From: Fibrobacter sp.
Lineage (GTDB): Bacteria; Fibrobacterota; Fibrobacteria; Fibrobacterales; Fibrobacteraceae
Reading direction: 5' to 3'
Assembly (NCBI GenBank): GCA_017649565.1
Contig: JAGCGO010000019.1
Span: 62,001 to 126,000 of the forward strand
Length of the DNA stretch: 64,000 nucleotides
Program-made: the position numbers and the translations under genes
Shown: piece by piece, positions 25,548 to 56,465 of the stretch
How the letters are laid out: each line of letters starts with the position of its first letter
Numbering within the stretch: position 1 is the stretch's first letter
Notes under the pieces: generated by a model
Databases searched by the model: none
What the model saw: only the letters and a program-made list of their open reading frames with translations
What the model was told of the DNA's origin: nothing

Positions 25548-25588
25548 TTTGTGCAGACTCCTTTTTTACCAACACCATTTGTCAGTAA

Positions 25589-25806: not shown

Positions 25807-25956
25807 TTAGGACTTAGGATTAACTTCGGCGCCGGGGGCGTAGCCGAGTTCGTCGCAATAATCTCCATCAGTGCATTCATTACTGCCACTCAGCAACGGA
25901 GCCTGATGCTTGAGATCCAACACTTCCATTTCCGGAGCTTTGTATTCTTTTTTCAT
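25807..25956 (-). CDS. 49-residue peptide, possibly exported or modified
   Basis: A short ORF from ATG 25956 to TAA 25807, with GGAGGGAAAC directly upstream and 15 nt after the stop of the secreted-protein gene 25972-26940, so the two are probably co-transcribed. The start is MKKEYKAPEMEVLDLKHQAP followed by LLSGS, then an acidic Cys-containing tail (NECTDGDYC, DELGYAPGAEV). From memory, short Bacteroidota and Fibrobacter peptides share an 'MKK-x-Y-x-x-P-E-x-E-V' leader and a small-residue break near residue 22; this was not checked. It could be a secreted peptide or a RiPP-type precursor, but no modification enzyme is nearby. Confidence 0.68.
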   Translation of the reverse strand: MKKEYKAPEMEVLDLKHQAPLLSGSNECTDGDYCDELGYAPGAEVNPKS

Positions 25957-25971
25957 GTTTCCCTCCAAAAA

Positions 25972-26940: not shown

Positions 26941-27064
26941 TTTTTCACCCTTCTTGTTACCCTTGAAAATATAAAATCTGCTTACAATTTTCAATAGGAA
27001 AATAAAAAACAGGGCCCGTTTAGGCCCCATTTTCTTCATTTATTCGAATTTCAGCCAAGAAAAA

Positions 27065-28786: not shown

Positions 28787-28824
28787 TTGGCACATCTTCG
28801 TCGCCACCGCGACTAGGTAATTTT

Positions 28825-28842
28825 GTTTAAGTTGTGCGCAAA
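28825..28842 (-). promoter_or_regulatory. conserved upstream element, copy 2
   Basis: On the minus strand TTTGCGCACAACTTAAAC, 39 nt before the start codon of the 27065-28786 gene. It is the counterpart of 25589-25606, with one mismatch. Confidence 0.5.
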
Positions 28843-28907
28843 TTTACTTTTTTCTTATAATTATTTCAAGGCCGTTTTTCTGTTTAGTTTAATTTACTTT
28901 GTATTAA

Positions 28908-30215
28908 TCAAGACGATATTCTTCCGGCATCCAGGCCCTTGACGGCATAGAAAACGCGGGATCCATCCAGTTTCAGAACAATGGCAAATCCGGCGAGGTA
29001 ATTCAGCCATTTATTGGACTCGTAATGCTTGATATCTATGTTTTTAGCCGAAACATAGACAACCAAGGGCATTATCAGCAAGTCATGCGTCGCAATGAAC
29101 GCCACATCCGTTCCGGCCCGCTCTGCAAAAGGGATAGCCACCGAATCAATCCATTCAGAGCATCGCGGTTCAAAATCATAAAACACATCCGAATAACTGT
29201 TTTTATAGGCCCACTTGGAAAGAATATCCCAACTGCTGTTGCTATTCTTTGCCGTATTGTAGGCTGCGGCATCCTTCACATACCAGGATTCCCCCATATG
29301 GGAAAGCGTATCGACTGTGAGATCGGCAATAGTATCGACGCCTGCACGACCCGCGGCAATATAGCGGCAAGTCTGCTGGGTGCGAATGGAGCCCGAAGCT
29401 CCATAATGGTATTCCAGGCTAGAGGCGAGTTTTCCGCCAAGTTCTAAAGCCTGCTGCACCCCGTTCGCGTTTAAGGGCGTCGAAGACGAAGAATCGGAAT
29501 TCCGTTCCGCATGACGAATCACCACGACAAGTCTTTCGCCCTCTGCCAAAATGCCGGCAACCGAATCCAAACGGACAAACTTGGTAACCGCCGATTTTTG
29601 GACATAGTAATTGTTCACATCGACGTTGCTTGCGGCACGCCACATTACCGTCCCTTCGTCACAAAAAAAATAGCGGAGTTCTTCCTGAATGACAGTCGAC
29701 TTGAGCGTTCCCTTATTTTCTTGGCTGCATTTCCCTAGAAAATATTCTGGATCCCGGACGGCAACGCTGTCTTTCACATTCACACTATCCACAACATGGA
29801 CGCTATCTCGCACTTTCACGCTGTCAATGATACGAACACTATCCTTCACATTCACGCTATCAATAATGCGCACGCTATCCTTCACGTTCACGCTATCAAT
29901 AATGCGGACACTATCCTTTACAACCACACTGTCTTTAATGCGGACGCTATCCTTCACGACCACGCTGTCTTTAATGCGGACACTGTCCTTCACGATCAAG
30001 CTATCTTTGATACTGACGCTGTCCTTCACATCCAGGCTGTCAATGATGTGAACACTATCAATCACATTCACGCTGTCATGAACGACAACCGAGTCACGCA
30101 CTACTTCGTCGGAAACGTCCGTACTAACTGACGCTTCCGAGTCTCCGCTGCAAGAATCAAACAATATCAAAAAAGATAAACTGAGCAGGGCTTGGGTTAA
30201 TTTTCTCTTTCTCAT
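28908..30215 (-). CDS. hexapeptide-stalk lipoprotein with histidine phosphatase domain
   Basis: A 435-residue lipoprotein with lipobox 'LILFDSC' (residue ~22). The stalk (~40-155) has 19 very regular hexapeptides alternating DSVRIK/DSVVVK and DSVRII/DSVNVK. Then 'YFLGKCSQENKGTLK ... RYFFCDEGTVMWRAA' and the phosphatase domain (~220-435) with 'VIRHAERN', 'SIRTQQT' and 'FIATHDLLIMPLV'. It starts 21 nt after the stop of the upstream paralogue, so it is likely the last gene of a three-gene operon (34763 to 28908). No clear Shine-Dalgarno; the leader is A-rich. Confidence 0.88.
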   Translation of the reverse strand: MRKRKLTQALLSLSFLILFDSCSGDSEASVSTDVSDEVVRDSVVVHDSVNVIDSVHIIDSLDVKDSVSIKDSLIVKDSVRIKDSVVVKDSVRIKDSVVVKDSVRIIDSVNVKDSVRIIDSVNVKDSVRIIDSVKVRDSVHVVDSVNVKDSVAVRDPEYFLGKCSQENKGTLKSTVIQEELRYFFCDEGTVMWRAASNVDVNNYYVQKSAVTKFVRLDSVAGILAEGERLVVVIRHAERNSDSSSSTPLNANGVQQALELGGKLASSLEYHYGASGSIRTQQTCRYIAAGRAGVDTIADLTVDTLSHMGESWYVKDAAAYNTAKNSNSSWDILSKWAYKNSYSDVFYDFEPRCSEWIDSVAIPFAERAGTDVAFIATHDLLIMPLVVYVSAKNIDIKHYESNKWLNYLAGFAIVLKLDGSRVFYAVKGLDAGRISS

Positions 30216-32594: not shown

Positions 32595-34763
32595 CTACCA
32601 GCCCTGGAAATAGGCATCTTTTAGGCCCTTGAAGGCCACATAGCGCCGATTTCCGGATTTATCCCAGATTATGGCAATTCCGGCGAAGTAATTTATCCAG
32701 GTTCCGCCGCCGTTAGGCGTTACGTTCATGTTGATTCTCAGCTTCGAGCAGTATGCCACGAAGGGGACCATGAGCTTGTCATGGGAACTGAGCATAATGA
32801 AACGGTCGGGTTCGTCCTTGTACTTATTATACAAAAGCTCAATCAGTTGGGCAGAGCGATTTTCCAGGTTATAGTAGGCCTGAATTCTCGCCGTGTCGCC
32901 GGAATACCTCCCGGTATAGGTATAGTACGAAGTCGCTTCCCAGCCGCCACCGGCCTCGGATTCCGCCTGGTTCACAAGCTGCCTGTCGATCATGTACCAG
33001 TTGTCGTTCAGCTCGGGAATCGTATCCGAAATAGTCGTGTCCTGTCCGCGGCCCATGGCAATGCCAATAACCGTCTGCTGGGCACGGTAGAATTCCGAGG
33101 CTCCGAGCCTCATCGGTTCGTTGAATTTCGTCAACCTTGAACCCACAGCCTTCGAAGAATCGAGACCGGCCTTCGAAAGACCGTCTTCCTTACTCGTGGC
33201 GTTCTGGTCACGTTGTGCATGGCGGAGCAAGAAGATAACCCTCTCGTCGGGCTTGATGCTCTCGTAAACTGTCTGTAGGTCAACAAAATCAGTAATGTTG
33301 GACTTGTTAACAAAGTAAGTATTGATAGCCAAAGCGGAGTTGTCCGCACGCCAGCTGTCGCTCGTCGCATTGTAGGAATAAAGGTTGCCCGCATTGACTT
33401 GGCCCTGACGGATTTCCCCATCCGTGCCTTTGCCAAATCCATAAGTATCCTTCTCTTCGTCATCCGCCTCGCGCCATGTCTTCGTTTTCTTGTCGCAAAT
33501 AAAACGTGCCGACGTAACGGACACATCGGACAGTTCCGAAGCGTAATAGGCGCTGAACGGGTTCTTCGAGAAGAAGATGGTGCCGACGTTTTCGTCAGAA
33601 CAGGCATCAAGGCCCAATTCCGCGCGGTAGAACATCCTGATGTACTTTTCAAAGGGAGGCACAATCCCAAGACCCAGCCTTTCGACATTCTTGAGAACCG
33701 TTTCGAAATCGTCATTCACGTCTTCGTTGAACGCCCAGTCTGCAATCTTTGCGCGGGCCAGGGAATCATCCCAGGAACCGTCAGCAAAGTCGGACGCCAC
33801 TTTCCACAGGTTGGCAACGGTATCGTTCGCGAGGGACTGCATCATGATGGTCGCGGCAAGCAAGGCCGCTGCATTCGGCTCGTTCCCGACAATCGAAGTC
33901 ACCGAGTCAACATGGCCAAGGCTATCCGCATCAAAGTTAAACATCTTCCACACCGCGCCCGACGCCTTTTCGGAAGCCTTCGTCTCGGTCGTGGATCCGG
34001 ACTTCTTCAACAGGCTCTGCATGTACACCGACTTCAGGTATGTCAGCACATTGATATTGGCATGGCCGTTCTTCCCACTGGTAGCCACAAGTGCATACAA
34101 AGTATCCTTCAGCTGTGTCGTACCACCGCGCACCAGGTCGACGGCCTTCCCCTGGACATACGCCCTTGCATAGGGCGGGGTAAAGCTTACGTTCGAGGCC
34201 GTATAGGTTCCCTCCGCCGCAGAAATCGTTGCGGGGAAACTTGTCCCGGTGCTCTTGAAAGATTCATCCAAGGCCTCCACGGCAACCGTGGCCCTGGAAT
34301 CGAATATACCATAGCTGAACGCACCCGAGACCTTGACCTTTTCAAGCAACACGGGTTCCTTGCCAGACTTTTCAGATGTGTCGGGCGAAGTGACTTTAGA
34401 AGTATCCTGATGTGTCAACGTATCGACCGATACGGAATCCTGACCCTGGGGATCCGCAATCTTTGCCGAATCCTGGCCAACCACGATTTCTTTCTGCTTT
34501 AAGGAATCTGTACTAAGGCTGTCTGCAGAGGTGCTATCCGGCAACTTGAGCCATTCACCCGCATTGCAAATATAGTGGATACCGTCCAGCGAATCGACAG
34601 TCCCTTCGGTCGTTTCATCGCAGATGTGCATTTCATACTTTGGATCCGCACTGTTCGAACTTTCGTCACCACACGACGCCAAAAAGCACAATGTACAGAC
34701 GAAGTACACTGCAAGCCCCAAGACCTTCAAACCAACCAGTCTACCCAAGCATTGTTTTGACAT
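32595..34763 (-). CDS. lipoprotein with divergent QKGPF-like and histidine phosphatase domains
   Basis: A 722-residue lipoprotein. ATG at 34763 has AAGGA 7 nt upstream. Lipobox 'LCFLASC' (residue ~31), then 'HICDETTEGTVDSLDGIHYICNAGEWLKL', a short sugar-binding-like repeat. A divergent QKGPF-type domain (~140-260) has 'VSGAFSYGIFDSRATV', 'PYARAYVQGK' and 'ANINVLTYLKS'. The second block 'AALLAATIMMQSL ... AKIADWAFNE' follows. The C-terminal phosphatase (~525-722) has 'LLRHAQRD' (Gln replaces Glu), 'FYRAQQT' and 'MLSSHDKLMVPFV'. First gene of the operon; 60 nt before the next paralogue. Confidence 0.85.
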   Translation of the reverse strand: MSKQCLGRLVGLKVLGLAVYFVCTLCFLASCGDESSNSADPKYEMHICDETTEGTVDSLDGIHYICNAGEWLKLPDSTSADSLSTDSLKQKEIVVGQDSAKIADPQGQDSVSVDTLTHQDTSKVTSPDTSEKSGKEPVLLEKVKVSGAFSYGIFDSRATVAVEALDESFKSTGTSFPATISAAEGTYTASNVSFTPPYARAYVQGKAVDLVRGGTTQLKDTLYALVATSGKNGHANINVLTYLKSVYMQSLLKKSGSTTETKASEKASGAVWKMFNFDADSLGHVDSVTSIVGNEPNAAALLAATIMMQSLANDTVANLWKVASDFADGSWDDSLARAKIADWAFNEDVNDDFETVLKNVERLGLGIVPPFEKYIRMFYRAELGLDACSDENVGTIFFSKNPFSAYYASELSDVSVTSARFICDKKTKTWREADDEEKDTYGFGKGTDGEIRQGQVNAGNLYSYNATSDSWRADNSALAINTYFVNKSNITDFVDLQTVYESIKPDERVIFLLRHAQRDQNATSKEDGLSKAGLDSSKAVGSRLTKFNEPMRLGASEFYRAQQTVIGIAMGRGQDTTISDTIPELNDNWYMIDRQLVNQAESEAGGGWEATSYYTYTGRYSGDTARIQAYYNLENRSAQLIELLYNKYKDEPDRFIMLSSHDKLMVPFVAYCSKLRINMNVTPNGGGTWINYFAGIAIIWDKSGNRRYVAFKGLKDAYFQGW

Positions 34764-34838
34764 ATTGCATCCTTGCCGACAAAGCCAACAAAGCATCCCA
34801 AAAGCCCTCGGGCCGATTCCGGCCCAAACGCTCTTTAA

Positions 34839-34867
34839 AAAATAAATTTTTTGTAATAAGAATTCAA
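34839..34867 (-). promoter_or_regulatory. possible promoter of the phosphatase lipoprotein operon
   Basis: On the minus strand TTGAAT (34862-34867), a 17-nt spacer and TATTTT (34839-34844), about 75 nt before the start at 34763. Match to the vegetative consensus is modest. Confidence 0.35.
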
Positions 34868-34904
34868 GGTTGCCCGGTGTCTATAATAGACCCGCCGGAC
34901 CATT

Positions 34905-36892: not shown

Positions 36893-39304
36893 TTACTGGA
36901 ACACGACCAGCTCGATGCGTTCGGCCTTGCCGCTCTTCTTGGCGGCTTCTTCGCCGCTGAAGCTTGCCGTGCGGAGGCGGCTGGCGTCGACACCCTTCGA
37001 CATCAGGGTGCTCTGCACCGTAATGGCGCGATCCTGGGCGAGCTTCTTGTTCCTTTCGTCATTGCCCTTGCCGCCGACATAGCCCTGGATTTCGAGCTTC
37101 AGGGTCGGGACCTTCTTCATGAGGGCGACGATGTTCGCAATGGAGTTGGCACTACCCTTGGAAAGCACCGCAGAGCCCTTCTCAAAGGTCAGGCCGCGGC
37201 CGAGAACTTCGAGGTCTTCCTTCTTGCTGGCCGAGCAGCCCCTGGCATCGACAGAGATTCCCTTCGGGGTACCCGGGCACTTGTCCTTATAATCCGGAAC
37301 AAGGTCACCATCGCTATCCAGAGAGCAACCGGTGGAATCCACAGGAGCGCCCTTCGGAGTGTTCGGGCACTTGTCCAGGCCATCGGCCACGCCGTCCTTG
37401 TCGCTATCCAGGTCGCAGCCGACGCTGTCCACCTTTGCACCCGGCAGGGTGTTCGGGCACTGGTCGATCTGGTCGGGGACGCCGTCCTTGTCATAGTCGA
37501 GAGCGCAACCGACGCTGTCCACCGTGATACCCTTCGGGGTCTTCGGGCACTGGTCCTGCTTATCAGAAACGCCGTCCTTGTCTTCATCCTTCACGCAGCC
37601 GAGGCTATCCACATCGAAGCCGGCCGGAGTGTTCGGGCAACGGTCCACGCCATCCGGTACGCCGTCCTTGTCGAAGTCCGGTTCGCAACCGAGAGTGTCG
37701 ACCTTGGCACCCTTCTTGGTGTTCGGGCACTGGTCGATGCCGTCGAAAACGCCATCCTTGTCAGTATCCGTCGGGCAGCCCGTAGAGTCAACCTTGGCGC
37801 CGAACGGGGTGTTCTGGCACTTGTCGAGATAATCTGCAATGCCGTCCTTGTCCGTATCAACAGGGCAACCGTCAGTAGTCACCTTGATGCTGTCCGGAGT
37901 GTTCGGGCACTTGTCGAGCATGTCGGCAACGCCATCCTTGTCAGCATCGAACGGGCAGCCGAGGGAATCCACAGCAAAGCCCTTCGGAGTAGCCGGGCAC
38001 TTATCGAGGTCGTCCATGACACCGTCGTCGTCGCTATCGCCGACGCAGCCCACATCGTTGACCTTCACGCCCTTCGGAGTGCCGGGGCACTTGTCATCAA
38101 TATCAATCACGCCATCGCCGTCGGTATCGATACCGCAGCCGAGGCTGTCAACAGTTGCACCGGGCTTGCTGTACGGGCACTTGTCCTTAATGTCGGGAAC
38201 GCCGTCGCCATCGGAGTCGACAAACTGCTTCGAAGCGAGCTTGTCACCCTTCGTAATGATGGTCGGATCGTCGTAGGCCTTCTTGCGGACATCGAAATGC
38301 CAGACAAGGGCTGCCACACCGGCGATGATCGGGGTCGAAGCGTAGCAGTAGGTGGCCGACTTGCCATCCTTGCGGAACTTGACCTGGTAATTCTTGCAGT
38401 TTTCGCGTTCATCACCCGAGTCGTAGCCGGGGTTGCTGAAGAAGCGAGAAGAGAAGTCGACACCCATGGTCAGGTCGACATGTTCGCCCAAGTGGGCGCG
38501 GAAGCCCGGAGTAACGAGCATCGGGTCAACAAAGGGATCGCGCGGGTAATCGGTCTTTTCCACGCGCATTTCGCCGGAGAATTCGACAAAGAAGTCGACC
38601 GCGTTGCCAGGAACCAGGTTAAAGGCAGTGGCATAGGAGACTACGTTGGCCTCGTCATGTCCGAGGGCCTTGAGGAAGCCGCCGCTCAGGTTCCAGCGAA
38701 GGGGGAAACCGAACTTGGTGAAATCAAGAGAAAAAGCAAGGGATGCGGAAAGGGCCATTCCTTCGCCAGAATAGGCGGAAGTTGCACCGGCATCGTCAAG
38801 ATACCAGGCATGGCGGGGGCGCACACCGGCACCGTCGGTTCCAGACGGGATATACATCTCGAGGAAGGTGGCTACGCCAAAGAAAAACTTGTCATCGAAC
38901 GGAACGCGGAGCTTTGTCCAGACATCCACGTCACCCATACCCGAGGACCACATCTTGTCGCTAACCGCAGTCCCATTGTCCGAGTTGGCATGGTCATAAT
39001 AAACCGGCAGGCTAGCACCGATATCCCAGAAACTCAGAAGGCCAATGCCCAGGTTCACGTTTCCAGACAACGAGGCATCGTCCGCATTGAATGAAGAAGT
39101 CTTGCCGTTTTCATCGGTATAGGTACCGCCGCGACTGAGAGACCAGGAATCCAATGCAAAATCACCACCCAGACCGAAGGAGAAGTTCCATTGTCCCAGC
39201 GTTTTGGCATTCACCTGATGAAGACCATCTGATCCGCCCTGCAGACCGGTCTGTGCAAAAACCATCCCGGCGGAGAGCAGCGAAAGAGCTATTAACTTTT
39301 TCAT
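36893..39304 (-). CDS. OmpA-family protein with eleven thrombospondin type 3 repeats
   Basis: An 803-residue outer-membrane protein. Signal peptide 'MKKLIALSLLSAGMVFA', then a beta-barrel-like N-terminal part (~20-355). Eleven ~30-residue calcium-binding TSP3 repeats follow (~360-690), each D-x-D-x-D-G-V-x-D-x-x-D-x-C-P then a closing V-D-S-x-G-C. The C-terminal OmpA peptidoglycan-binding domain (~700-803) has 'LTFEKGSAVL', 'LEIQGYVGGKGNDERNKKLAQDRA' and 'SKGVDASRL'. It likely ties outer membrane to cell wall through a rigid calcium-loaded stalk. AAGGGATGATAG precedes the ATG. Single gene. Confidence 0.93.
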   Translation of the reverse strand: MKKLIALSLLSAGMVFAQTGLQGGSDGLHQVNAKTLGQWNFSFGLGGDFALDSWSLSRGGTYTDENGKTSSFNADDASLSGNVNLGIGLLSFWDIGASLPVYYDHANSDNGTAVSDKMWSSGMGDVDVWTKLRVPFDDKFFFGVATFLEMYIPSGTDGAGVRPRHAWYLDDAGATSAYSGEGMALSASLAFSLDFTKFGFPLRWNLSGGFLKALGHDEANVVSYATAFNLVPGNAVDFFVEFSGEMRVEKTDYPRDPFVDPMLVTPGFRAHLGEHVDLTMGVDFSSRFFSNPGYDSGDERENCKNYQVKFRKDGKSATYCYASTPIIAGVAALVWHFDVRKKAYDDPTIITKGDKLASKQFVDSDGDGVPDIKDKCPYSKPGATVDSLGCGIDTDGDGVIDIDDKCPGTPKGVKVNDVGCVGDSDDDGVMDDLDKCPATPKGFAVDSLGCPFDADKDGVADMLDKCPNTPDSIKVTTDGCPVDTDKDGIADYLDKCQNTPFGAKVDSTGCPTDTDKDGVFDGIDQCPNTKKGAKVDTLGCEPDFDKDGVPDGVDRCPNTPAGFDVDSLGCVKDEDKDGVSDKQDQCPKTPKGITVDSVGCALDYDKDGVPDQIDQCPNTLPGAKVDSVGCDLDSDKDGVADGLDKCPNTPKGAPVDSTGCSLDSDGDLVPDYKDKCPGTPKGISVDARGCSASKKEDLEVLGRGLTFEKGSAVLSKGSANSIANIVALMKKVPTLKLEIQGYVGGKGNDERNKKLAQDRAITVQSTLMSKGVDASRLRTASFSGEEAAKKSGKAERIELVVFQ

Positions 39305-40170: not shown

Positions 40171-40228
40171 GACGAGAGGCTCCTAACCACTAACCACTTC
40201 CTACTTCCTACTTCTAACTTCCTACCCC
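40171..40228. repeat. degenerate 7-bp periodic tract B
   Basis: It begins at the stop codon of the ATPase gene with GACGAGAGG, then variant heptamers in phase (CTCCTAA, CCACTAA, CTACTTC twice, and others). By hand, 31 of 42 lag-7 comparisons match (40180-40228). It leaves no Shine-Dalgarno before the permease ATG. Confidence 0.7.
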
Positions 40229-40231
40229 CCC

Positions 40232-47709: not shown

Positions 47710-48783
47710 ATGAAAAGAGAACGACTGCGCGGAGTGAATTTGGGCGGCTGGTTCAGCCAGGTAGACTGTATCGAAGAAAAGGACCCGGCTGGGTTCCCCG
47801 GAATTCTTGAACACATACGCACGTTCCTCTCTCCCGACGACTTCAAGCGAATCCGCGAGGCGGGGTTCAACCACGTGCGCTTGCCCGTGGACTACTTTAA
47901 CCTGTTCGAAACAGACAGTCTCAAGCCCAAGGACGAATTTTTTGTACTGCTGGACAAGGCGCTCAAGGACATCCAGGCAGCGGACCTCGATGTCATCCTC
48001 GACCTGCACAAGTGCCCCGGCCACGACTTCCACCTGGGATCGTACCAGGAGCAGCCCTTCTTTGTGGACCCAAAGGCCCGCGAAGGCGCCTGCAAGGTAT
48101 GGGCGTACATGGCCGAACGCTACAGCAACCAGCCGCGCGTGATGATGGAGCTCCTGAACGAGCCCGCCGGTACCGACTCCAAGGTTTGGGACAAGGTAAA
48201 AGACGAACTTTTCTGGACCATCCGCAAGCATGCGCCCAGGAACACCATCGTGGTGGGCAGCAACAAGTGGAACAGCGCCCGTGAATTCCAGTACCTGACC
48301 CCGCTCGACGACGACAACGCCATCTACAGTTTCCACACCTACACCCCGGTGACATTCACGCACCAGGGCGCCGCCTGGATTAGCGACCCGTTCTTCAAGA
48401 TCGAACGTCCCTGGCCCGGCGACTATGCCGCACCCGAACAGGGCGGCACCACGCGACTGGACGTAGAATACGGCAAGTGGGACAAAGCGAGATTGCAGGC
48501 AAGCATCCAGAACGCGCTAGACTTCCGCGCCAAATACGACCTGCCTGTCGCCTGCAACGAATTCGGCGTATACGTACAGGTCCCGCGCAAGTACCAAATC
48601 GCCTGGATGAAGGACTTCCTCGACATCCTGCGCGAAGCCGACGTGGGCTACAGCTACTGGAACTACAAGAACCTCGACTTCGGCATCGTCTCCAAGGGAG
48701 AGTCGCTGCACAACAGCCTGCCGCAATACGACAATCCGGATAGACTCGACAGCGAAATGCTGGAGATGCTGGCGAGAGGCTAG
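47710..48783 (+). CDS. GH5 glycoside hydrolase, no signal peptide
   Basis: A 357-residue GH5 enzyme. 'RGVNLGGWF' at the N-terminus, 'FNHVRLPVDYF', acid/base Glu in 'MMELLNEPAG' (~145) and nucleophile Glu in 'LPVACNEFGVY' (~285) are intact. Also 'IYSFHTYTPVTFTHQGAAW' and 'GYSYWNYKNLDFGI' of the barrel. GH5 enzymes of this type act on beta-1,4- or beta-1,3-linked glucans. The start MKRERLRG follows GGGATG, and no signal peptide or lipobox is present, so it is predicted cytoplasmic, perhaps acting on imported oligosaccharides. It follows the 96-residue protein gene. Confidence 0.93.
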   Translation: MKRERLRGVNLGGWFSQVDCIEEKDPAGFPGILEHIRTFLSPDDFKRIREAGFNHVRLPVDYFNLFETDSLKPKDEFFVLLDKALKDIQAADLDVILDLHKCPGHDFHLGSYQEQPFFVDPKAREGACKVWAYMAERYSNQPRVMMELLNEPAGTDSKVWDKVKDELFWTIRKHAPRNTIVVGSNKWNSAREFQYLTPLDDDNAIYSFHTYTPVTFTHQGAAWISDPFFKIERPWPGDYAAPEQGGTTRLDVEYGKWDKARLQASIQNALDFRAKYDLPVACNEFGVYVQVPRKYQIAWMKDFLDILREADVGYSYWNYKNLDFGIVSKGESLHNSLPQYDNPDRLDSEMLEMLARG

Positions 48784-48793
48784 ACGAGAGAAC

Positions 48794-48880
48794 GCTCGCA
48801 AGCGAGCTACAGACGAAAGACGAGAGAGGTTAGTAGTTAGGATCTAGGGATTGTCATGCTCGGCTTGGCCGGGCATCTCC
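48794..48880. repeat. heptamer tract C1 and REP-like palindrome copy 2
   Basis: The spacer after the GH5 stop holds a short palindrome (GCTCGC/GCGAGC, 48794-48807). Heptamer-phased words (AAGACGA, GAGAGGT, TAGTAGT, TAGGATC) fill 48812-48851. The second copy of the 29-bp REP-like element lies at 48852-48880 (25 of 29 identical to 21420-21448 on the opposite strand). Confidence 0.6.
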
Positions 48881-48902
48881 TCTTGTTCTGTGAAGAAGGA
48901 GG

Positions 48903-48969
48903 TCCCCGACCATGCTTCAGCGTTGCTCACTTCGGCAAAGCTCAGTACAGGCAGCACAGGCGTCGGGGA
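48903..48969. repeat. inverted repeat in the GH5-OMP spacer
   Basis: TCCCCGAC (48903-48910) and GTCGGGGA (48962-48969) enclose 51 bp. The 320-bp spacer 48784-49103 holds no plausible gene; it is made of this element and the flanking heptamer tracts. Confidence 0.45.
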
Positions 48970-48990
48970 AGACATCTAATTAAATCATCT

Positions 48991-49102
48991 CATTCCACAT
49001 CCCACATTACACATCCCACATTTCTCATAGCTCACGGCTCATAGCCGACAGCAGACACCTCGTGCCTCGTGCCTCGAACCTGGAGCCTCGAACCTCGAGC
49101 CT
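48991..49102. repeat. degenerate 7-bp periodic tract C2, 16 heptamers
   Basis: Sixteen consecutive heptamers in strict phase. They drift from CATCCCA-type words through CATAGCT and GACACCT to CGTGCCT and CGAACCT. By hand, 74 of 105 lag-7 comparisons match, against about a quarter expected. The tract ends next to the stop codon of the convergent OMP gene (49104). Read from that gene it begins AGGCTCG, AGGTTCG, like tract E. Confidence 0.85.
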
Positions 49103-49103
49103 A

Positions 49104-49565
49104 TTACAGCTCTACCAATATGCCGGCTTGCAGATAAACGTATCCCTTGCCTCGGTCCTCGAGGAACTGGAAGCCGCCCATCAACAGGATAGAGGAATAG
49201 TCCCCGTTCTTGATATCGAAACCGCCGCCGGCGCGCCATATCATCTGGCTGTCGTCGCCAAAGGCATAGCCGATATCGCCAGTCACTACAGGCAACGTCT
49301 GCCCGCCAATCGGCAAGCGGATCCAGGCCGATGCCATCACGGGAATGTACCCGACGTTGTCCAGCTCGTTGTAACCGCCGCCAATGCCAAAGAACACCAT
49401 CTGGTCGATAGGATACCAGACATGCCCGAACACATTCAAGTTGAACGATGTCATGTCGCTCACCGCGTTTACGATACCGCCCTGGACATCCATGGTGAAA
49501 GCGTTCGCCTTCGTCGCCGAAAACGACAAGGCACAGACAAACAGGATTGCAAGCAAGCGTCTCAT
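49104..49565 (-). CDS. small outer-membrane beta-barrel protein
   Basis: A 153-residue exported protein. Signal peptide 'MRRLLAILFVCALSFSATKANA'; alternating strands with Gly/aromatic girdles ('VFGHVWYPIDQMVFFGIGGGYNEL', 'SSILLMGGFQFLEDRGKGYVYLQAGILVEL') suggest a small 8-strand barrel. AGGAGATGAA precedes the ATG. It starts 8 nt after the stop of the glycosyltransferase gene, so it is the last gene of the clpP-ftsY operon. Function unknown. Confidence 0.85.
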   Translation of the reverse strand: MRRLLAILFVCALSFSATKANAFTMDVQGGIVNAVSDMTSFNLNVFGHVWYPIDQMVFFGIGGGYNELDNVGYIPVMASAWIRLPIGGQTLPVVTGDIGYAFGDDSQMIWRAGGGFDIKNGDYSSILLMGGFQFLEDRGKGYVYLQAGILVEL

Positions 49566-49573
49566 TTCATCTC

Positions 49574-50743
49574 CTATGCGTCATCGTCACCGCGGGCCTC
49601 ACGGGCCCAGCCGCCACTCTTTTCTTTTTTGAACGAAAGAAAGAAACCTTTCAACATCGCCACGTTCATCGTGATGAAATAATACGCGTGAGGAACCATG
49701 CGCGACACGCCCACGATGATGCATAAAACTATCACGCCAAAGAAAACCTGGTAAAACAGGCCCTTCGGCAAAAGAATCGCGTTACATAGCGCAAGCAAGA
49801 TGAAAATATGGGGAGAGAACCAACGCACGACTTTATGGCAGAAGAACAGGTACGCCCGCAGCGGGCGGAGCGGATTCAACAGCGGGAGATACGAAATCAG
49901 GTAGTTGAAGTTGGCACGGCCGATACGGACCTTGCGGCGATACTCGCCCGAGGATTCCTTCGACGTCTGTTCCGTACCGATGGCACTGCCCACGAACGTA
50001 CTGTAATAACCCTTCTGCAGAATCTTTGTTGTAATGTAGAAGTCGTCCATGACGCTCTTCTTCACCGGAAGTTCCGTATAAAGTTCCCTGCGGATTGCAT
50101 AGAGCGCACCGTTGCCGCCAATCAACAAGTCCAGCGCACCCTCGAACTTTTTCATCTCGGATTCCAGGTCCCAGTAGGAACTTTCGCCCTTGCCCAAAAC
50201 GCTGCCGCTACGGTCCGACAAAATGAGGTGACCACAGACGCAACCCATCTTATTGTCGACAAACGGGCCCACCAGTTTACGTACCGCATTGGGGAAGAAC
50301 ATCGTATTCGCATCGCTAAACACGAGGATGTCGCCTGTCGCATACGTGACAAGCCTATTCAGCATGGCGGCCTTGCCTGCATTCTTGGGAGCCTTTACCA
50401 GCGTAATTCCCTGGTCGGCATAACTGGCGACAATTTCTGCAGTCCTGTCCGCAGAGCCGTCATCACCGATGAGGACCTGCAACTTTTCCTTGGGATAGTC
50501 TATCGAGAGGACATTGTGGATCTTGCGTTCGATGACCGCTTCCTCGTTATAGGCCGAAACCAATATGGAGACTGTCGGCAAATAACTCGACGAAGGCTGC
50601 GGCTTGCGCCTACGCTTGAAAATCTCGCTTACGAACGGGAGCGTTATCGGGAACAGCGCATAGCAAAGCACCAGCAAGGACAACGATATCCAGAAGCCGA
50701 TCTGCGCCACAAAATAAACCTGTTCCATTACCGCGCTATCCAT
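49574..50743 (-). CDS. family 2 glycosyltransferase, membrane-bound
   Basis: A 389-residue processive-type GT2. Hydrophobic N-terminal segment (~8-30), cytosolic GT-A domain (~50-290) with 'PTVSILVSAYNEEAVIE', 'IGDDGSADRT', 'VFSDANTMF' (DxD-like), 'GGNGALYAIRR' and 'MDDFYITTKILQKGY', the acceptor-site Asp. 'RRKVRIGRANF' stands at the usual QxxRW position without the Trp. Two to three C-terminal membrane segments follow (~305-375). It probably builds an envelope or exopolysaccharide. Start is ATG 50743, overlapping the thioredoxin gene; ATG 50728, overlapping its stop as TAATG, is equally possible. Confidence 0.9.
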   Translation of the reverse strand: MDSAVMEQVYFVAQIGFWISLSLLVLCYALFPITLPFVSEIFKRRRKPQPSSSYLPTVSILVSAYNEEAVIERKIHNVLSIDYPKEKLQVLIGDDGSADRTAEIVASYADQGITLVKAPKNAGKAAMLNRLVTYATGDILVFSDANTMFFPNAVRKLVGPFVDNKMGCVCGHLILSDRSGSVLGKGESSYWDLESEMKKFEGALDLLIGGNGALYAIRRELYTELPVKKSVMDDFYITTKILQKGYYSTFVGSAIGTEQTSKESSGEYRRKVRIGRANFNYLISYLPLLNPLRPLRAYLFFCHKVVRWFSPHIFILLALCNAILLPKGLFYQVFFGVIVLCIIVGVSRMVPHAYYFITMNVAMLKGFFLSFKKEKSGGWAREARGDDDA

Positions 50744-51192
50744 TCTTTTTCTTTCGTCAAAAATTGATTCAACAAGAACCGCATATCCGAGACATCCAGC
50801 GACTGCGTGAGAGTCAAGATGCTCATCCCCTTCGGGGCAACCAGCACGTATGACGGCACCGCAGACAATTCCCACACATCAAAATAGCATCGTTCCACCG
50901 TTTTGGCCTGGCCATCGCACATAATCGAGTCCTGAGACTCGGCATTCAGCTTTACCGGGATGAACCTGGAATTCAAAAGCGTCGCCACACTGGGGTCCGA
51001 GTACACGTTTTTCTCCATGACCTGGCAGGGGATGCACCAGTCGGCATACACCGACACAAACATGAGCTTCGATTCCTTCGCGGCCTTCTTGAGCCCCTCC
51101 GTGTAGGAAAGCCAGTGGACCTTAGTGTCCTTCTTCAGAGGCACCGCGAAAGCGAAACAGGCGCTCAGGAGCATCAGCAGGGCTATCCTCAT
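50728..51192 (-). CDS. exported thioredoxin-fold protein
   Basis: A 154-residue protein with signal peptide 'MRIALLMLLSACFAFA' and a thioredoxin-like fold. 'KLMFVSVYADWCIPCQVMEKNVYSDP' holds the redox pair C-I-P-C (~57-60). The cis-Pro lies in 'SAVPSYVLVAPKG'. This resembles the DsbD C-terminal/thioredoxin_7 group that reduces or transfers electrons in the periplasm. An extra Cys pair ('IMCDGQAKTVERCYF') could form a second disulfide. The start overlaps the upstream lipoprotein stop by ATGA, and its own stop overlaps the GT2 start, so it is co-translated in the operon. Confidence 0.9.
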   Translation of the reverse strand: MRIALLMLLSACFAFAVPLKKDTKVHWLSYTEGLKKAAKESKLMFVSVYADWCIPCQVMEKNVYSDPSVATLLNSRFIPVKLNAESQDSIMCDGQAKTVERCYFDVWELSAVPSYVLVAPKGMSILTLTQSLDVSDMRFLLNQFLTKEKEWIAR

Positions 51193-51548
51193 TTTTTCTT
51201 TCCCTTCTTTCCCGGCGTTTCGAGCGGATTCCCGAGCAACGAATCGATATGGCGGACAACGGCCTGCTCGAACGGGACCCAGCGGCTATCGTCTTCAAGG
51301 ATTTCGTCGACGGCTTTCTTGTAGGATTCAAGCGTGTAGCCGTGCTTTTCGACAATGCTCTTGCGGGCGAGCCGCGCTTCCGGGGTCTCGGTCCCGAGGG
51401 ACTGTTCCATGACCCGGATGTCCACGTAAGTGGTAACAAGCCTGGAATCTATCGAGGGGGCTCCCTGGTCACAGGCGCAGAGCATACAGCCCAAGACGCA
51501 AAGCAACACAGCGCATATTCGCCATGTCCATTGCCGTCCAAACCGCAT
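51189..51548 (-). CDS. small lipoprotein, DUF4296-like
   Basis: A 119-residue lipoprotein; ATG at 51548 is preferred to a GTG four codons earlier. Lipobox 'LGCMLCAC' (~26). The rest is helical and charged: 'VTTYVDIRVMEQSLG', 'ARKSIVEKHGYTLESYKKAVDEILEDD', Lys-rich end 'GKKGKKK'. The pattern of a short helical lipoprotein with 'Y...HG...E.Y..A...' recalls DUF4296 lipoproteins of Bacteroidota, a tentative link. It lies 18 nt after ftsY and overlaps the thioredoxin gene by 4 nt. Confidence 0.8.
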   Translation of the reverse strand: MRFGRQWTWRICAVLLCVLGCMLCACDQGAPSIDSRLVTTYVDIRVMEQSLGTETPEARLARKSIVEKHGYTLESYKKAVDEILEDDSRWVPFEQAVVRHIDSLLGNPLETPGKKGKKK

Positions 51549-51566
51549 CCAGCCCTGCACCTTCGG

Positions 51567-52487
51567 CTACCTCGCCTCTTCGAGGGCGTTCTCGAAAAGT
51601 CCGTCGATATATTCGCGCTTGTTGAATTCCACGAGCTGGTCAATCTGTTCGCCCATGCCCACCCAGCGGATGGGAATCTGGAGTGAGCTCGTGATGGAGA
51701 GCACCGAACCGCCACGCGCCGTGCCGTCCAGTTTGGTCACGACAAGACCGGTGAGCGGGAAGCTCTGGTTGAAAATCTTCGTCTGGTTGATAGTGTTCTG
51801 GCCGGTGTTTCCGTCGATGACGAGCCACATGTCCTGCGGGAAGTCCGGATTTACCTTCTTCATCACGCGGACGATTTTCTTGAGTTCCTCCATCAAGTAA
51901 TCCTTGTTGTGGAGGCGCCCCGCCGTATCGACGATAAGGACATCGCAACCGCGCGCAACTGCCGCCTGGCAAGCATCGTAGGCAACCGCAGCCGGATCGC
52001 TGCCTTCCTGGTGCTTCACGAACTCGGCACCGCTGCGCTGCGCCCAGGTCTCGAGCTGGTCAATAGCCGCGGCACGGAACGTATCGCAGGCGGCGATCAT
52101 CACCTTCTTGCCTTCGTTCTTCCAGCGGGCGGCGAGCTTGCCGATAGTCGTCGTCTTGCCGGCGCCGTTCACGCCGATGACAAGAACCACATGAGGCTTG
52201 CCCTTGAGTTCAAAAGCGGGAGGATCCTTCAGGAGGCGTTCGGCCTCGCTGCGCATGATATCGAGCACCTGCTCCGTCGTGAGCGACTTGCCGAGCGCAT
52301 TTTCGCGGAGGGCGTCCGTCAGCAAAAACGCGGCCTCGACACCCACGTCCGCCTTGATCAGGTGTTCTTCCAGTTCTTCCAGGGTGTCGTCGGTAATCTT
52401 GCCGGCGCCGACAATACCCTTGAGTTCGCCTATCAGGGCGTCACGGGTCTTCGAAAGCCCGTTCTTTATCGCAGAAAATAAACCCAT
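51567..52487 (-). CDS. ftsY: signal recognition particle receptor FtsY
   Basis: A 306-residue SRP receptor GTPase that docks ribosome-SRP complexes at the inner membrane. N domain (~1-85), then NG GTPase: G1 '[15 protein letters not shown]' (~105), '[15 protein letters not shown]', G3 '[20 protein letters not shown]', G4 '[11 protein letters not shown]' and '[14 protein letters not shown]'. The acidic A domain of E. coli FtsY is absent, as in many bacteria. The ATG overlaps the clpP stop by one base (TAATG). Confidence 0.97.
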
Positions 52488-53068
52488 TAGATAAGACTCT
52501 CGACTTTGTCCACAAGACCGTAGGCCTTAGCCTCTTCCGCCGACATGAAGTTATCGCGTTCCGTATCCCGGTCGATTTCCTCGATGGTATGTCCGGTCGT
52601 CTCGGCAAGGATCTTGCCCGTGATTCCGCGGATGCGCAACATCTCTTCGGCCTGGATCTGGATATCGCTCGCCGGGGCGACGATTTCGCCGTGGATGAGC
52701 GGCTGGTGGATCATGATGCGGGCGTTCGGCCATGCGGCACGCTTGCCCTTGGCACCGGCAGTCAAGAGGACGGCACCCATGGAGGCCGCCTGGCCGCAGC
52801 ACACCGTGACCACGTCACTCTCGATAGCGTTCATGCAGTCATAAATGGCAAGACCGCTACTGATAACGCCACCCGGGCTGTTGATGAAAAGCACGATGTC
52901 GTCGTGGTTCAGGGAATCCAGGTACAGAAGTTGCTGCACGACCTTTGCCGCGCTGTCATCATCGATGGCGCCCCACAAAAAGATGCGGCGCTTCGAAGAC
53001 AGATACTCTTCGGCCTTCTTCAAAAATTCCGGGGTGGACTTCTCGTTCTTGTCTTTGCAATCTGCCAT
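52487..53068 (-). CDS. clpP: ATP-dependent Clp protease proteolytic subunit
   Basis: A 193-residue ClpP serine protease subunit; it forms the two-ring chamber that degrades proteins unfolded by ClpX/ClpA. The catalytic triad is visible: Ser in 'GQAASMGA' (~98), His in 'RIMIHQP' (~123) and Asp in 'DRDTERDNFMS' (~172). 'LFINSPGGVISSGLAIYDCM' is typical. AAAGGAATACTT precedes the ATG. Here clpP leads an operon with ftsY and envelope genes instead of clpX. Confidence 0.96.
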   Translation of the reverse strand: MADCKDKNEKSTPEFLKKAEEYLSSKRRIFLWGAIDDDSAAKVVQQLLYLDSLNHDDIVLFINSPGGVISSGLAIYDCMNAIESDVVTVCCGQAASMGAVLLTAGAKGKRAAWPNARIMIHQPLIHGEIVAPASDIQIQAEEMLRIRGITGKILAETTGHTIEEIDRDTERDNFMSAEEAKAYGLVDKVESLI

Positions 53069-53165
53069 AAGTATTCCTTTTCTTTACAGCGACAAGTTAG
53101 CAATTTCGCAGGCGCTCTGCCGAGCCACAGCATCGGCAGAACACCATTTTTAGTATCTTTGCGGC

Positions 53166-53948
53166 ATGCAGAGAAAGGACGCAAGCAAGGCTACGAAGAA
53201 GAACCTGGTTGGGCTCATCAGCCCGCATGTCCTTTCCGCGGCCGAGGCCGATCCAATCAGCCCGGTGGTCATGGACCTCCAGGCCTGCGACATGCTCGAA
53301 ATCCGCTACGACTGGTTCGAAAAAAGCCTGTGGCCAGGCCTTTCCGCCCGTGTCCGCAAGATTGCCCCGGACGCAGAACAGATCGGCACGATCCGCCTCG
53401 CCCGCGACGGCGGAACATTCCCCGACGACAGTGCCGTGGAACGACCCGCGCTATGGCAATCCATCTTTGCCGCACAGGAAGTCCCCGAATGGATGGACCT
53501 CGAGCGCGACTGCCTCCACGACTACGACGCCCTGGCCGAACTTGCCACGCCGCACGGCACGCGCATCATCGTCTCGGAACACAACTTTGTTCGCATCCCC
53601 ACGCTTCTCGAACTGAAAAAGTTCGCCCAGGACGTCCAGCGGGTCAAGGCGGCGGGACTCAAGATCGCAGCCATGAGCAACGGTCCGCTCGACTGCCAGA
53701 GACTCTACCAGTTCATAAGCAAGAACGCCAAAAATTTTGAAATGTTTGCCGCATTCGGTATGGGCAAAACGGGCAAGCCGTCCAGGATATGGTCGCTCCA
53801 CGAAGGAGCAAACCTTACCTACGGGTCCATAGAGATCAATGCCGCCCCCGGACAAATCGACGTCATGACCATGAAAAAAGCCATAGACGCCCTCGGCAAT
53901 TTTTCTTCCGAAAACGATATAGCGGCGTTTTTGAACAAATTTGAGTAA
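53166..53948 (+). CDS. aroD: type I 3-dehydroquinate dehydratase
   Basis: A 260-residue class I enzyme of the shikimate pathway (3-dehydroquinate to 3-dehydroshikimate). Motifs: 'DMLEIRYDWFE' (~42), catalytic His in 'IIVSEHNF' (~140), Schiff-base Lys in 'GLKIAAMS' (~165), and the Arg/Gln substrate site in 'MGKTGKPSRIWSLHEGANLTYGSI' and 'APGQIDV'. Length is normal. It is divergent from clpP with ~97 bp between. Confidence 0.93.
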   Translation: MQRKDASKATKKNLVGLISPHVLSAAEADPISPVVMDLQACDMLEIRYDWFEKSLWPGLSARVRKIAPDAEQIGTIRLARDGGTFPDDSAVERPALWQSIFAAQEVPEWMDLERDCLHDYDALAELATPHGTRIIVSEHNFVRIPTLLELKKFAQDVQRVKAAGLKIAAMSNGPLDCQRLYQFISKNAKNFEMFAAFGMGKTGKPSRIWSLHEGANLTYGSIEINAAPGQIDVMTMKKAIDALGNFSSENDIAAFLNKFE

Positions 53949-54066
53949 ATTTGCCTACTTTCATACTACAATTTTGGCACATTTCAGTATTTTCTCGTAA
54001 AAACCTCGTCAAAATTCAATTTTTTTGCTAAAATATCAAGTTGAACAATATAAGAGGTTTCACCAT

Positions 54067-54531
54067 ATGAGACTTTCCGAAAGATTTGTTGACAACTGCA
54101 TCTTGATCAACTCTGCCAGCCAGACCAAGGAAGCTATCCTGAACGAGCTGGTGGACACGCTCTGCAGTGCCTACAAACTGGAACACAGGGACGAAATATT
54201 CGAAGCCGTCTGGAACCGCGAAAAGAGCCGTTCCACCGGTATCGGATGTGGGCTCGCCGTGCCGCACGCAAAGATCGACTACGTCGACCGCATGTGCATG
54301 GTGGCAGCCACCGTCGAAAAGGGCCTGGATTTCGAGTCCTTCGACGGGGAGCCGGTCTACCTGATTATCCTCATCGTAAGCCCGGGTAACACCGTGGGAC
54401 CGCACCTCAAGGCGCTGTCCTCCGTAAGCCGCCTGCTGGCCGACGGAACCGTGCGCAAGGACCTCATCGAGGCAAAGACCCCGTCCGAGTTCCTGACCAT
54501 CCTCCGCGCCGCCGAAGATAAGTTCTTGTAG
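54067..54531 (+). CDS. ptsN: PTS EIIA-type (PtsN-like) regulatory protein
   Basis: A 154-residue EIIA domain of the fructose/nitrogen type. ATG at 54067 has AGAGG upstream. The phosphorylated His lies in 'GIGCGLAVPHAKIDYVDR' (~66), with 'VYLIILIVSPGNTVGPHLKALSSVSRLL' as in PtsN. No EIIB/C transport domain is attached or adjacent, which favours a regulatory role in PTS(Ntr) signalling. Confidence 0.88.
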   Translation: MRLSERFVDNCILINSASQTKEAILNELVDTLCSAYKLEHRDEIFEAVWNREKSRSTGIGCGLAVPHAKIDYVDRMCMVAATVEKGLDFESFDGEPVYLIILIVSPGNTVGPHLKALSSVSRLLADGTVRKDLIEAKTPSEFLTILRAAEDKFL

Positions 54532-54621
54532 GGATGAGGATCTAGGGGCTAGGACCTGGGGGGCGGCCTTGCCGCGATTATTTGCTCTAGCCTCTAGTCT
54601 CTAACCCCTAATCTCTAACAT
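54532..54621. repeat. degenerate 7-bp periodic tract D with hairpin potential
   Basis: After the ptsN stop, purine-rich words (GGATCTA, GGGGCTA, GGACCTG) at ~54538-54560 face five phased pyrimidine heptamers (CTCTAGC, CTCTAGT, CTCTAAC, CCCTAAT, CTCTAAC) at 54585-54619. The second half scores 21 of 28 lag-7 matches. The two halves are roughly complementary around a GGCGGCCTTGCCGC-like centre and could fold into a long imperfect hairpin. Confidence 0.65.
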
Positions 54622-54665
54622 CACTTGACAACCTTTCCGCCCTTTACTATATTTGCTCCCACCTC

Positions 54666-54740
54666 GGACGGTTAGCTCAGTTGGTTTAGAGCGCTGCTTT
54701 CACACGGCAGAGGTCACTGGTTCAAATCCAGTACCGTCCA
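54666..54740 (+). tRNA. tRNA-Val (anticodon CAC)
   Basis: Cloverleaf of 75 nt: acceptor GGACGGT (54666-54672) pairs with ACCGTCC (54733-54739). D-arm contains AGCTCAGTTGG. The anticodon stem CTGCT/GGCAG encloses loop TTCACAC with anticodon CAC. T-arm contains GGTTCAAATCC. Discriminator A at 54740; the following bases are CTA, so CCA is not encoded. It reads the GUG Val codon. Confidence 0.95.
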
Positions 54741-54744
54741 CTAG

Positions 54745-54776
54745 AAAGGCCGCCCGCAATGGCGGCCTTTGTTTTT
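54745..54776 (+). terminator. terminator after tRNA-Val
   Basis: Perfect 10-bp stem AAAGGCCGCC (54745-54754) / GGCGGCCTTT (54761-54770), 6-nt loop, followed by GTTTTT. Confidence 0.88.
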
Positions 54777-54845
54777 CCCCATACAAAATATTGCTATTTT
54801 CCCCGCACGACGCAACGAAACCCCGCAGAGAGGCATCTAAAAGGC

Positions 54846-56141
54846 ATGAACACGAAATTAGCGATTCTTCTTGGGTTACTGGTCCCGGCCACCGCCGCCT
54901 TCGCAGGCGGCACATGGACGCTCGCGGACTGCCTCAAGCAAGCCAAAGAAAAGAGCCTCTCCCTGGAATCGGCCAAGCTCCGCGAACAGAAGGCGGACAT
55001 CAGCGTCAAGCAGGCGAAGTCCAGCAACTCCCCGACCGTGAATGCGAACATCCAGAACACCCTTTACGACCATCCCTTCGTTGACGACGGGGACCACTAC
55101 CGCCTGAACCTGGGCATTTCCGGATCGTACACCCTCTGGGACGGCGGGGCCAACAGCCTGAACGTCGAGGCAAGCCAGCTTTCGAAGGAAGCGGCAACCC
55201 TTTCTACCAAGCAGACCGAACGTTCCGTGCAGGAAAGCGTCCTGAACGCCTACATGTCGCTGCTCGCCGCCATGGAAAACCTGCGCACGGCGAACGCCTC
55301 CGTCGAACTTTCCCAGGCGGAATTCGAGCATTACGGCAAGCTCTACGAGGCCGGGTCTATCACCAAGAAGGAACTCACCCAGAGCCAGTCCAACGTGTTG
55401 CAGAAGCAGGTGGCGCAACTTTCCGCCCAGCTTTCCGTCAACAGTGCGAAGACGGCGCTACGGCAGCTGCTTGAACTGGGCGACAACGAGGAATTCGAAA
55501 TCACGGCCCCCGAGAGCAATATCGAAAGTCCCGACTCGCTCCCCCCGTTGCCGACACTCGACGAGCTCCGGAAGACGGCCAAGGAATCGCATCCGGGCCT
55601 CAAGTCCGACAGCGTGAGCGTCAAGGCCGCAAAGAAAAACACGCAGGTCGCCGGCAAGGCAAGCTCCATCACCGTAACGCTGGGGGCAAACTCCAGCACG
55701 GGACTCCAGGCCTGGGAATCCGACCGCTACGGACGCCAGCTCAAGAACGGATGGCAAAACTCCATCACGCTTGGCATCAACATCCCCATCATCGACGGCG
55801 GGGCGACCGACAACAAGGTGCTGCAGGCGCAGGTCACCGAGGCCGAGACGCAGATCAGCATGCAGGAAACCGCCAAGAGCATTGAGAACAACATAGAAAA
55901 GCTACACATCAACGCCGTCAGCGCCGACATGCAGTGGAAGGCCGCGGCACTCCAGGTGCTGGCCGAAACCGAGGCCCTGCAGGTCGCCGAAGAGCAGCGC
56001 AACGCAGGCGCCCTCACCTACACCGACTACCTCACGCAAAAGAACAACCTCGAGAAGGCGCAGATTACGCAGACCAACGCCAAGTACACGAGCCTGCTCG
56101 CCAGGAAGATGCTGGAACTGTACCAGGGAAAGCTGGATTAA
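54846..56141 (+). CDS. TolC-family outer-membrane efflux protein
   Basis: A 431-residue TolC-type protein. ATG at 54846 gives signal peptide 'MNTKLAILLGLLVPATAAFA'. 'WTLADCLKQAKEKSLSLESAKL' opens the first of two outer-membrane-efflux repeats (~25-215 and ~265-430), each with a long helical pair and barrel strands ('LNLGISGSYTLWDGG', 'ITLGINIPIIDGG'). The trimer would form a channel from the periplasm to the outside with an inner-membrane pump; none is adjacent. Single gene, ending at heptamer tract E. Confidence 0.92.
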   Translation: MNTKLAILLGLLVPATAAFAGGTWTLADCLKQAKEKSLSLESAKLREQKADISVKQAKSSNSPTVNANIQNTLYDHPFVDDGDHYRLNLGISGSYTLWDGGANSLNVEASQLSKEAATLSTKQTERSVQESVLNAYMSLLAAMENLRTANASVELSQAEFEHYGKLYEAGSITKKELTQSQSNVLQKQVAQLSAQLSVNSAKTALRQLLELGDNEEFEITAPESNIESPDSLPPLPTLDELRKTAKESHPGLKSDSVSVKAAKKNTQVAGKASSITVTLGANSSTGLQAWESDRYGRQLKNGWQNSITLGINIPIIDGGATDNKVLQAQVTEAETQISMQETAKSIENNIEKLHINAVSADMQWKAAALQVLAETEALQVAEEQRNAGALTYTDYLTQKNNLEKAQITQTNAKYTSLLARKMLELYQGKLD

Positions 56142-56207
56142 GAGAGGTTCCAGGCTCGAGGCTCGAGGTGCGAGGAGGAAGATTCCAAGCTCGAGGTGCG
56201 AGATTTC
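56142..56207. repeat. degenerate 7-bp periodic tract E
   Basis: It starts directly at the stop codon with GAGAGG, then nine phased heptamers (AGGTTCC, AGGCTCG twice, AGGTGCG and variants; 56145-56207). By hand, 33 of 56 lag-7 comparisons match. The word family matches tract C2 read in reverse complement. Confidence 0.72.
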
Positions 56208-56379
56208 ATCATAAAACGGCCCGTGTTTCGTCTTTGAAACGGCGGGCGTTTCTGTTTGAAAGCCCGTCCCCCTGAATTTTTTCAGGCAGAGACGTCCAAT
56301 GGCCGATTTCGGCCCAATTTCGGCATATTTTTGAAAAATTCAGCCTTTTTTTTCGAAAAAAAGCCCAGAGTCGGCACTT

Positions 56380-56397
56380 TTGGCACGGCGTTTGCAT
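56380..56397 (+). promoter_or_regulatory. sigma-54-type promoter of hsp20
   Basis: TTGGCACGGCGTTTGCAT matches the -24/-12 consensus TGGCACG-N4-TTGCA, with the GG and GC pairs at standard spacing. It lies about 70 nt before the hsp20 start. A GGAGG ribosome site is at ~56453-56457. Confidence 0.72.
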
Positions 56398-56465
56398 ATA
56401 CCCTAGCGAAAACAAATGGGCCACGCGGCGAACGCCGGGGACCCGAAAACCACGGAGGTATTCCA

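Follow-up and report, generated by a model that had tools for sequence, protein, structure and literature searches.

Degenerate heptad tracts between Fibrobacter genes are probably the arms of small dispersed palindromic elements

The degenerate 7-bp tracts found between genes in a Fibrobacter sp. genome are probably arms of non-coding palindromic elements that are small (about 40–150 bp), REP/MITE-like in character, dispersed between Fibrobacter genes and divided into several families, a reading to which we assign a probability of roughly 70%. A typical element would start with degenerate 7-bp units in a purine-rich array, continue through one or two central hairpins, and finish with related units in a pyrimidine-rich array. 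These elements are dispersed, replace one another between species, change arm length in 7-nt steps, hold stop codons in the phase of their arrays and carry self-complementary hairpins. The tracts came to light in a stretch of 64,000 nt, here called the window, from an assembly of 3.45 Mb in 120 contigs with an estimated completeness of 90% (the source genome), and the relatives compared were Fibrobacter sp. and F. succinogenes. The initial annotation of the window read the tracts as phased degenerate heptads with common word families, distinct from simple tandem repeats and from coding DNA, and that reading stands. It did not recognise the heptads as arms belonging to dispersed palindromes that have hairpins or cores inside, and it missed their purine-left/pyrimidine-right polarity, the stop codon in array phase and the wholesale exchange of families between close species.

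The clearest tract, 48991–49102, has 74 lag-7 matches out of 105, the same as an earlier count by hand, vs. a maximum of 47 among 1000 dinucleotide-preserving shuffles, and no other lag-7 run in the window is as strong. Six spacers had been described as phased heptamers, with lag-7 autocorrelation against shuffled controls proposed as the check; five of them passed it (40171, 48812, 48991, 54532, and 56142, each 0/1000 shuffles), including 22/44 matches over 48812–48862 and 39/81 over 54532–54619, and other non-coding lags were mostly empty. The sixth, 23967, was dropped because its lag-7 score is weak (25/57, matched by 11/1000 shuffles) and the spacer has equal length and nearly identical sequence in the nearest species. 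The window-wide mean at lag 7 (0.2426) is not raised and the signal is therefore local.

In the source genome and its relatives, the periods elevated in non-coding DNA are 7 and multiples of 7. High self-match clusters in 461 kb of the source genome numbered 22 at lag 7, 13 at lag 14, and 11 at lag 21, with one at lag 22 and none at lags 4, 5, 8, 10, 11, 13, 16, 17, 19, 20, and 23; lags that are raised by coding repeats (6, 9, 12, 15, and 18) gave clusters as well. Based on a codon-model gene caller, 856 kb of the same genome contained 47 non-coding tracts at lag 7 and 27 at lag 14, compared with two at lag 6, one each at lags 12, 15, and 16, and none at lags 4, 5, 8, 9, 10, 11, 13, and 17. 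A global lag spectrum made with a crude ORF mask had given a weak lag-7 signal, probably because the mask swallowed the arrays, and is superseded by the cluster counts and the codon-model gene calls. Other Fibrobacter samples showed the same lag-7 behavior at densities of 12 to 88 tracts per Mb, Bacteroidota loci had 40 lag-7 tracts per 1.01 Mb (20 at lag 14 and at most five at each remaining lag listed), and nine loci from other Fibrobacterota yielded one. A simple assembly artefact is an unlikely source of the tracts because independently assembled genomes carry the same elements at the same places. One contig of the source assembly starts within CTCTCGT/CTTCCTA arrays (G000:C32:2-141), and arrays may therefore break metagenome assemblies. 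The window also contains tandem repeats inside genes, of 18, 36, 72, and 90 bp in long minus-strand ORFs at 25105–25371, 27950–28531, and 29773–30078 (the 25105–30078 family, with units like GCTATCAATAATACG) and of 90 bp at 37350–37960 inside ORF 36893–39304.

Table 1. Heptad tracts and associated palindromes in the window
Feature	Position	Strand	Basis
Heptad tract between ABC ATPase stop and MacB/FtsX permease start	40171..40231	+	Lag-7 34/54, 0/1000 shuffles
GACGAGA-family element, internal hairpin GCTCGCAAGCGAGC	48784..48826	+	One of 38 genome copies of flank pattern
Short purine-rich heptad arm (TTAGTAG, TTAGGAT, CTAGGGA)	48827..48851	+	Sequence
REP-like palindrome TGTCATGC..GCATCTCC	48852..48881	+	Sequence; similar stretches recur in other spacers of the source genome
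Pyrimidine-rich heptad arm (CATCCCA, CTCATAG, CCTCGAG words)	48984..49102	+	Lag-7 74/105 over 48991–49102
Purine-rich left arm, CTAGNNN-type dyad, from PTS EIIA stop codon TAG	54532..54560	+	Lag-7; RNA fold
Inner hairpin GCGGCCTTGCCGC	54563..54575	+	Terminator-like scan match; fold
Pyrimidine-rich right arm CTCTAGCCTCTAGTCTCTAACCCC, upstream of tRNA-Val promoter	54585..54619	+	TRF period 7/14
Purine-rich GAGGCTC-family arm, directly 3' of outer membrane efflux gene stop codon	56142..56208	+	Lag-7 34/60, 0/1000 shuffles

The 40171 tract, at which mainly one arm is visible, begins with a single GACGAGA word followed by a CTAACCA/CTTCCTA pyrimidine-rich arm. It splits the ABC ATPase from the MacB-FtsX permease, as had been claimed for it, and in many relatives the ATPase stop abuts the permease start, with an upstream-gene end resembling GAGGAGGA just 5' of the ATG. 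The flank-pattern copy of the 48784 element lies on the minus strand (C30:110783-110815, window 48783–48815), and the long pyrimidine-rich arm beyond it extends to the convergent gene's stop codon. The two arms of the 54532 element pair in its RNA fold; fold z-scores for two window elements were modest (−1.55 and −1.52), which speaks against a simple hairpin model. At the Rfam gathering score a tRNA was the sole match in the window, and the tracts match no Rfam family.

Comparison of the spacers of the source genome with one another showed that 94/408 have a repeat in common with another spacer, so that a large share of them is touched by elements, and exposed the centres between the arms as hairpins and REP-like palindromes. 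Arrays adjoining a gene 3' end were purine-rich on the strand of that gene in 23/29 cases in the source genome and 6/7 in the relative G008, with 0/2 in G003, 2/3 in G005, and 10/16 in other Fibrobacter. Those adjoining a 5' end were pyrimidine-rich (14/16 in the source genome, 1/1 each in G003 and G005, and 10/12 in other Fibrobacter). A spacer therefore tends to run from the stop codon through a purine arm, the centre, and a pyrimidine arm to the next gene. We considered and rejected the idea that the arms are kept as one long stem: in the source genome and G008 arms from the same locus were no more complementary than arms from different loci (2/42 stood out), nor were they in other Fibrobacter (0/36), and there is therefore no visible selection on a long stem there. 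Same-locus complementarity was clear in Bacteroidota loci alone (9/25). In Chitinophaga solisilvae, two long and almost perfect hairpins carry AATTACG heptads in their outer arms (L117:4830-4995 and L117:6450-6602), the outer arms being identical and the inner stems different yet each self-complementary; the first folds at −110.8 kcal/mol (z −23.5).

Selection for gene-end function would offer another account, in which the tracts are transcription terminators or 3'-UTR stabilisers, that is, fast-evolving gene-end stem-loops, bidirectional and conserved in structure but unconstrained in sequence. Such a role accords with tracts that abut stop codons, with hairpins that vary yet remain self-complementary, with a purine-left, pyrimidine-right polarity that suits both strands, and with the excess of tracts in convergent spacers of the source genome (17 tracts in 57 spacers vs. 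9 in 97 divergent and 19 in 227 co-directional, counting spacers of at least 40 nt). However, many orthologous spacers have no tract, one tract lies within the operon-like ATPase/permease pair, the terminator-like count in 48700–56400 is no higher than in shuffles, and arms of one locus pair no better than arms of different loci. We consider this account unlikely, and any putative role of the dispersed palindromes in termination or mRNA 3'-end protection would be secondary. An explanation by Rho sites was weighed too and set aside.

The tendency of tracts to begin at a stop codon, noted from the outset, was confirmed and can be stated more sharply, as the stop codon is in array phase in 21.5/42 arrays abutting gene 3' ends vs. 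6 expected, with the gene's stop codon omitted when the array consensus was built. This excess corresponds to P of about 4e-8 if the arrays are independent, but the 42 arrays have words and relatives in common and the tests overstate their independence. The match in phase amounts to 0.55 for the stop codon and 0.36 across the final 7 coding bases, falling to background beyond 14 nt upstream. TAG is used at 20/42 array-adjacent stops vs. 407/1324, and all three frames are closed within 25 nt in 19/42 arrays vs. 4% of shuffles. A universal stop-codon explanation fails for GACGAGA and GAGGCTC words, which contain no stop codon, and is retained as a contributing factor.

Comparison of orthologous spacers, also proposed earlier, revealed that close species carry different families or none between well-conserved flanks. 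At the window sites the 150-nt flanks are 78–99% identical to those of the compared relatives and the tract is exchanged. Seven relatives at the 54532 site carry the GCTATGA type (G008, G063), the GACGAGA type (G067), arms of CTAGGGG around a different centre (G013, G046), or no tract, the stop codon then lying almost at the tRNA-Val promoter (G005, G022). The 56142 site has the same family in slightly shorter form in G067, another family with GACGAAA words in G013, and no tract in G008, G063, and G046. At the 40171 site, G008 has a complete dyad of other words (GCTATGA/CTCATCG), L091 has the words of the window tract in more copies, and L096 has an 11-nt spacer. Four further clean site comparisons agree on swapping (L024, L339, L347, and L348), one being the 48784 site again; they come from 90 partly redundant loci tried, of which eight gave usable matches and six of those eight were examined. 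The swapped loci L345 and L346 are not clean in that neighboring sequence differs too. Between the source genome and G008, the 23 array-less orthologous spacers have a median identity of 0.91, against 0.33 and 0.48 for the two in which both genomes have an array, based on 28/29 orthologous spacers classed (one of >700 nt was excluded), few of them contributed by G008 contig C9. Three spacers were scored as having an array in the source genome only, and for one of them (34632–34904) the flag reflects no more than a chance GACGA-type word. From species to species the word families change sharply, and elements are replaced between species with genes about 90% identical at these sites, so that they dominate the evolution of gene boundaries there.

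These comparisons also bear on the possibility that the tracts are plain heptanucleotide STRRs, arrays that expanded on site by slippage starting at a local seed and have since decayed, with common words arising by convergence. The tracts are tandem 7-bp units between genes, as such repeats are, many arrays have the stop codon as their first unit, which is expected of a local seed, and orthologous copies differ in unit number by 7-nt steps, both in Fibrobacter and, by eye, in Bacteroides (L146/L150 and L148/L150). On the other hand, unrelated loci have multi-unit strings, cores, and hairpin flanks in common, the family at one site is swapped wholesale between close species, and several array-less relatives have almost no spacer to seed from. 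The units are moreover degenerate and of mixed words, and the arrays flank hairpins or cores, so they are not free-standing runs of near-identical units. Growth in place is thus quite improbable and, because the cores are dispersed, is already disfavoured as the whole story, although slippage may shape the arms. The Bacteroides arrays are of the TAAGTAT type (L146:4342-4510, L150:4310-4477, L148:3987-4057, and L150:9928-9991), and orthologous members show single 7-nt unit differences by eye.

The dispersed-palindrome reading draws on a family in which CTAGNNN heptads surround a two-hairpin core about 58 nt long. Matches to this element were found in 13/61 Fibrobacter genomes (E<=1e-8) and reach at least 16 per genome, all counts being lower bounds from 14 first-look candidates scored. 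The element lies between different genes at 30 loci, a few of which represent the same site in several species, with the core kept and the heptads varying. Alignment of 37 distinct copies with differing flanks gave 80–100% identity in most core columns, and one stem pair is C-G in 26 copies and T-A in nine. Like MITEs, this family has many dispersed copies with defined ends. The left arm at one orthologous locus has, counted by eye, six heptads in G046, two in G063, and three in G067 (L381, L405, and L407). G069 (L281-L295) has a dispersed family of its own, in which CTAG heptad arms accompany a conserved core about 75 nt long; it was found at many of the 15 loci examined there.

A second family keeps its flanks and varies its hairpin. 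The arrangement CGTCTGTAG, hairpin, GTTCNNTCGTC occurs 38 times in the source genome, where the reversed string does not occur, and the pattern is present in 51/61 genomes. The 46 distinct sites in the Fibrobacter DNA examined have constant flanks around 37 different hairpins, 36 of the sites having perfect stems and ten imperfect ones; shuffling arms between hairpins of the same length gave a mean of 12.1 perfect stems and a maximum of 18. Loops of the perfect stems are GNA in 29/36 cases, and GNA loops form very stable DNA mini-hairpins. A recurrent imperfect type, e.g., GCGAGCTTGCGAGC, has a left arm that looks inverted (GCGAGC for GCTCGC) and tandem G-A oppositions.

GTAG stands immediately 5' of the short palindrome of this family, a tag that together with its many extragenic copies is typical of REPs, which raises the possibility that a Y1 transposase (RAYT) mobilises the hairpin as a REP. 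Y1_Tnp is encoded in the source genome, and a GACGAGA hairpin lies within about 1.5 kb at 4/27 Y1 loci. However, Y1_Tnp was detected in 20/61 genomes only and is absent from the array-rich G008 at 99% completeness, the remaining 23/27 Y1 loci have no such hairpin nearby, and the stems are not conserved as those of a REP would be. These observations weaken RAYT as a universal driver and make this explanation very improbable.

We infer that the palindromic elements spread as REP/MITE-like non-autonomous mobile DNA, with slippage lengthening and shortening the arms in 7-nt steps. Hairpin stems may be rewritten as units, perhaps via template switching in the palindrome. Insertions would be tolerated at gene ends, partly since stop codons at period 7 close all three frames, 7 not being a multiple of 3. 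No mobilising transposase and no caught transposition were found in the genomes compared. It is conceivable, if somewhat doubtful, that the heptad-armed palindromes of the Fibrobacterota-Bacteroidota group are mobile DNA of an unrecognised class, perhaps also underlying cyanobacterial and Beggiatoaceae heptamer repeats, docking on stop codons with all-frame stops, growing by 7 nt, rewriting hairpins as whole palindromes, and driven by an enzyme or replication mechanism with a 7-nt step. The presence/absence series at defined sites make it testable why bacterial intergenic repeats favour seven, and the variable-stem hairpin with constant flanks provides a natural series for palindrome rewriting.

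Among known systems, MITEs are small dispersed non-coding elements with inverted ends, and the Fibrobacter elements are likewise small, non-coding, and dispersed with inverted ends; by eye, filled/empty pairs at orthologous sites of the window show no target-site duplication, and no parent transposon came to light in the genomes compared. The P6b stem of the Nostoc tRNA-Leu intron contains heptanucleotide repeats and similarly places repeat motifs on a quickly varying stem-loop, but at a single locus, within a group I intron. No description of these elements was found in the part of the literature on Fibrobacter repeats that was covered. GTAG- and CGTC-tagged REPs are many-copy short palindromes located mostly downstream of genes, some families having units that differ in stem and loop, according to the sections of Di Nocera (2013; PMC3733652) drawn on here; the main text of that paper contains no occurrence of Fibrobacter. 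The GACGAGA family shares with REPs so described the high copy number, the position mostly 3' of genes, and the GTAG before the stem, and the window palindrome at 48852 resembles members of the CGTC-tagged superfamily. The Fibrobacter elements differ in having heptad arms, near-complete stem turnover with constant flanks, GNA loops, and apparently no consistent RAYT. Cyanobacterial heptanucleotide repeats, which the initial annotation had named as the nearest analogy, are an apt comparison. Intergenic 7-bp units are reported from cyanobacteria, Xanthomonas, and Beggiatoaceae in portions of PMC4692102 and PMC4679880, and resemble the Fibrobacter tracts in their species-specific positions, 7-nt indels between close strains, and relatives without them. 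As portrayed there, however, those are mostly single-word arrays without cores, whereas the Fibrobacter units are degenerate, draw on several words, and form the arms of hairpin-core elements. On these partial descriptions the Fibrobacter elements are a variant apart from both REPs and heptanucleotide repeats, and they connect the two literatures.
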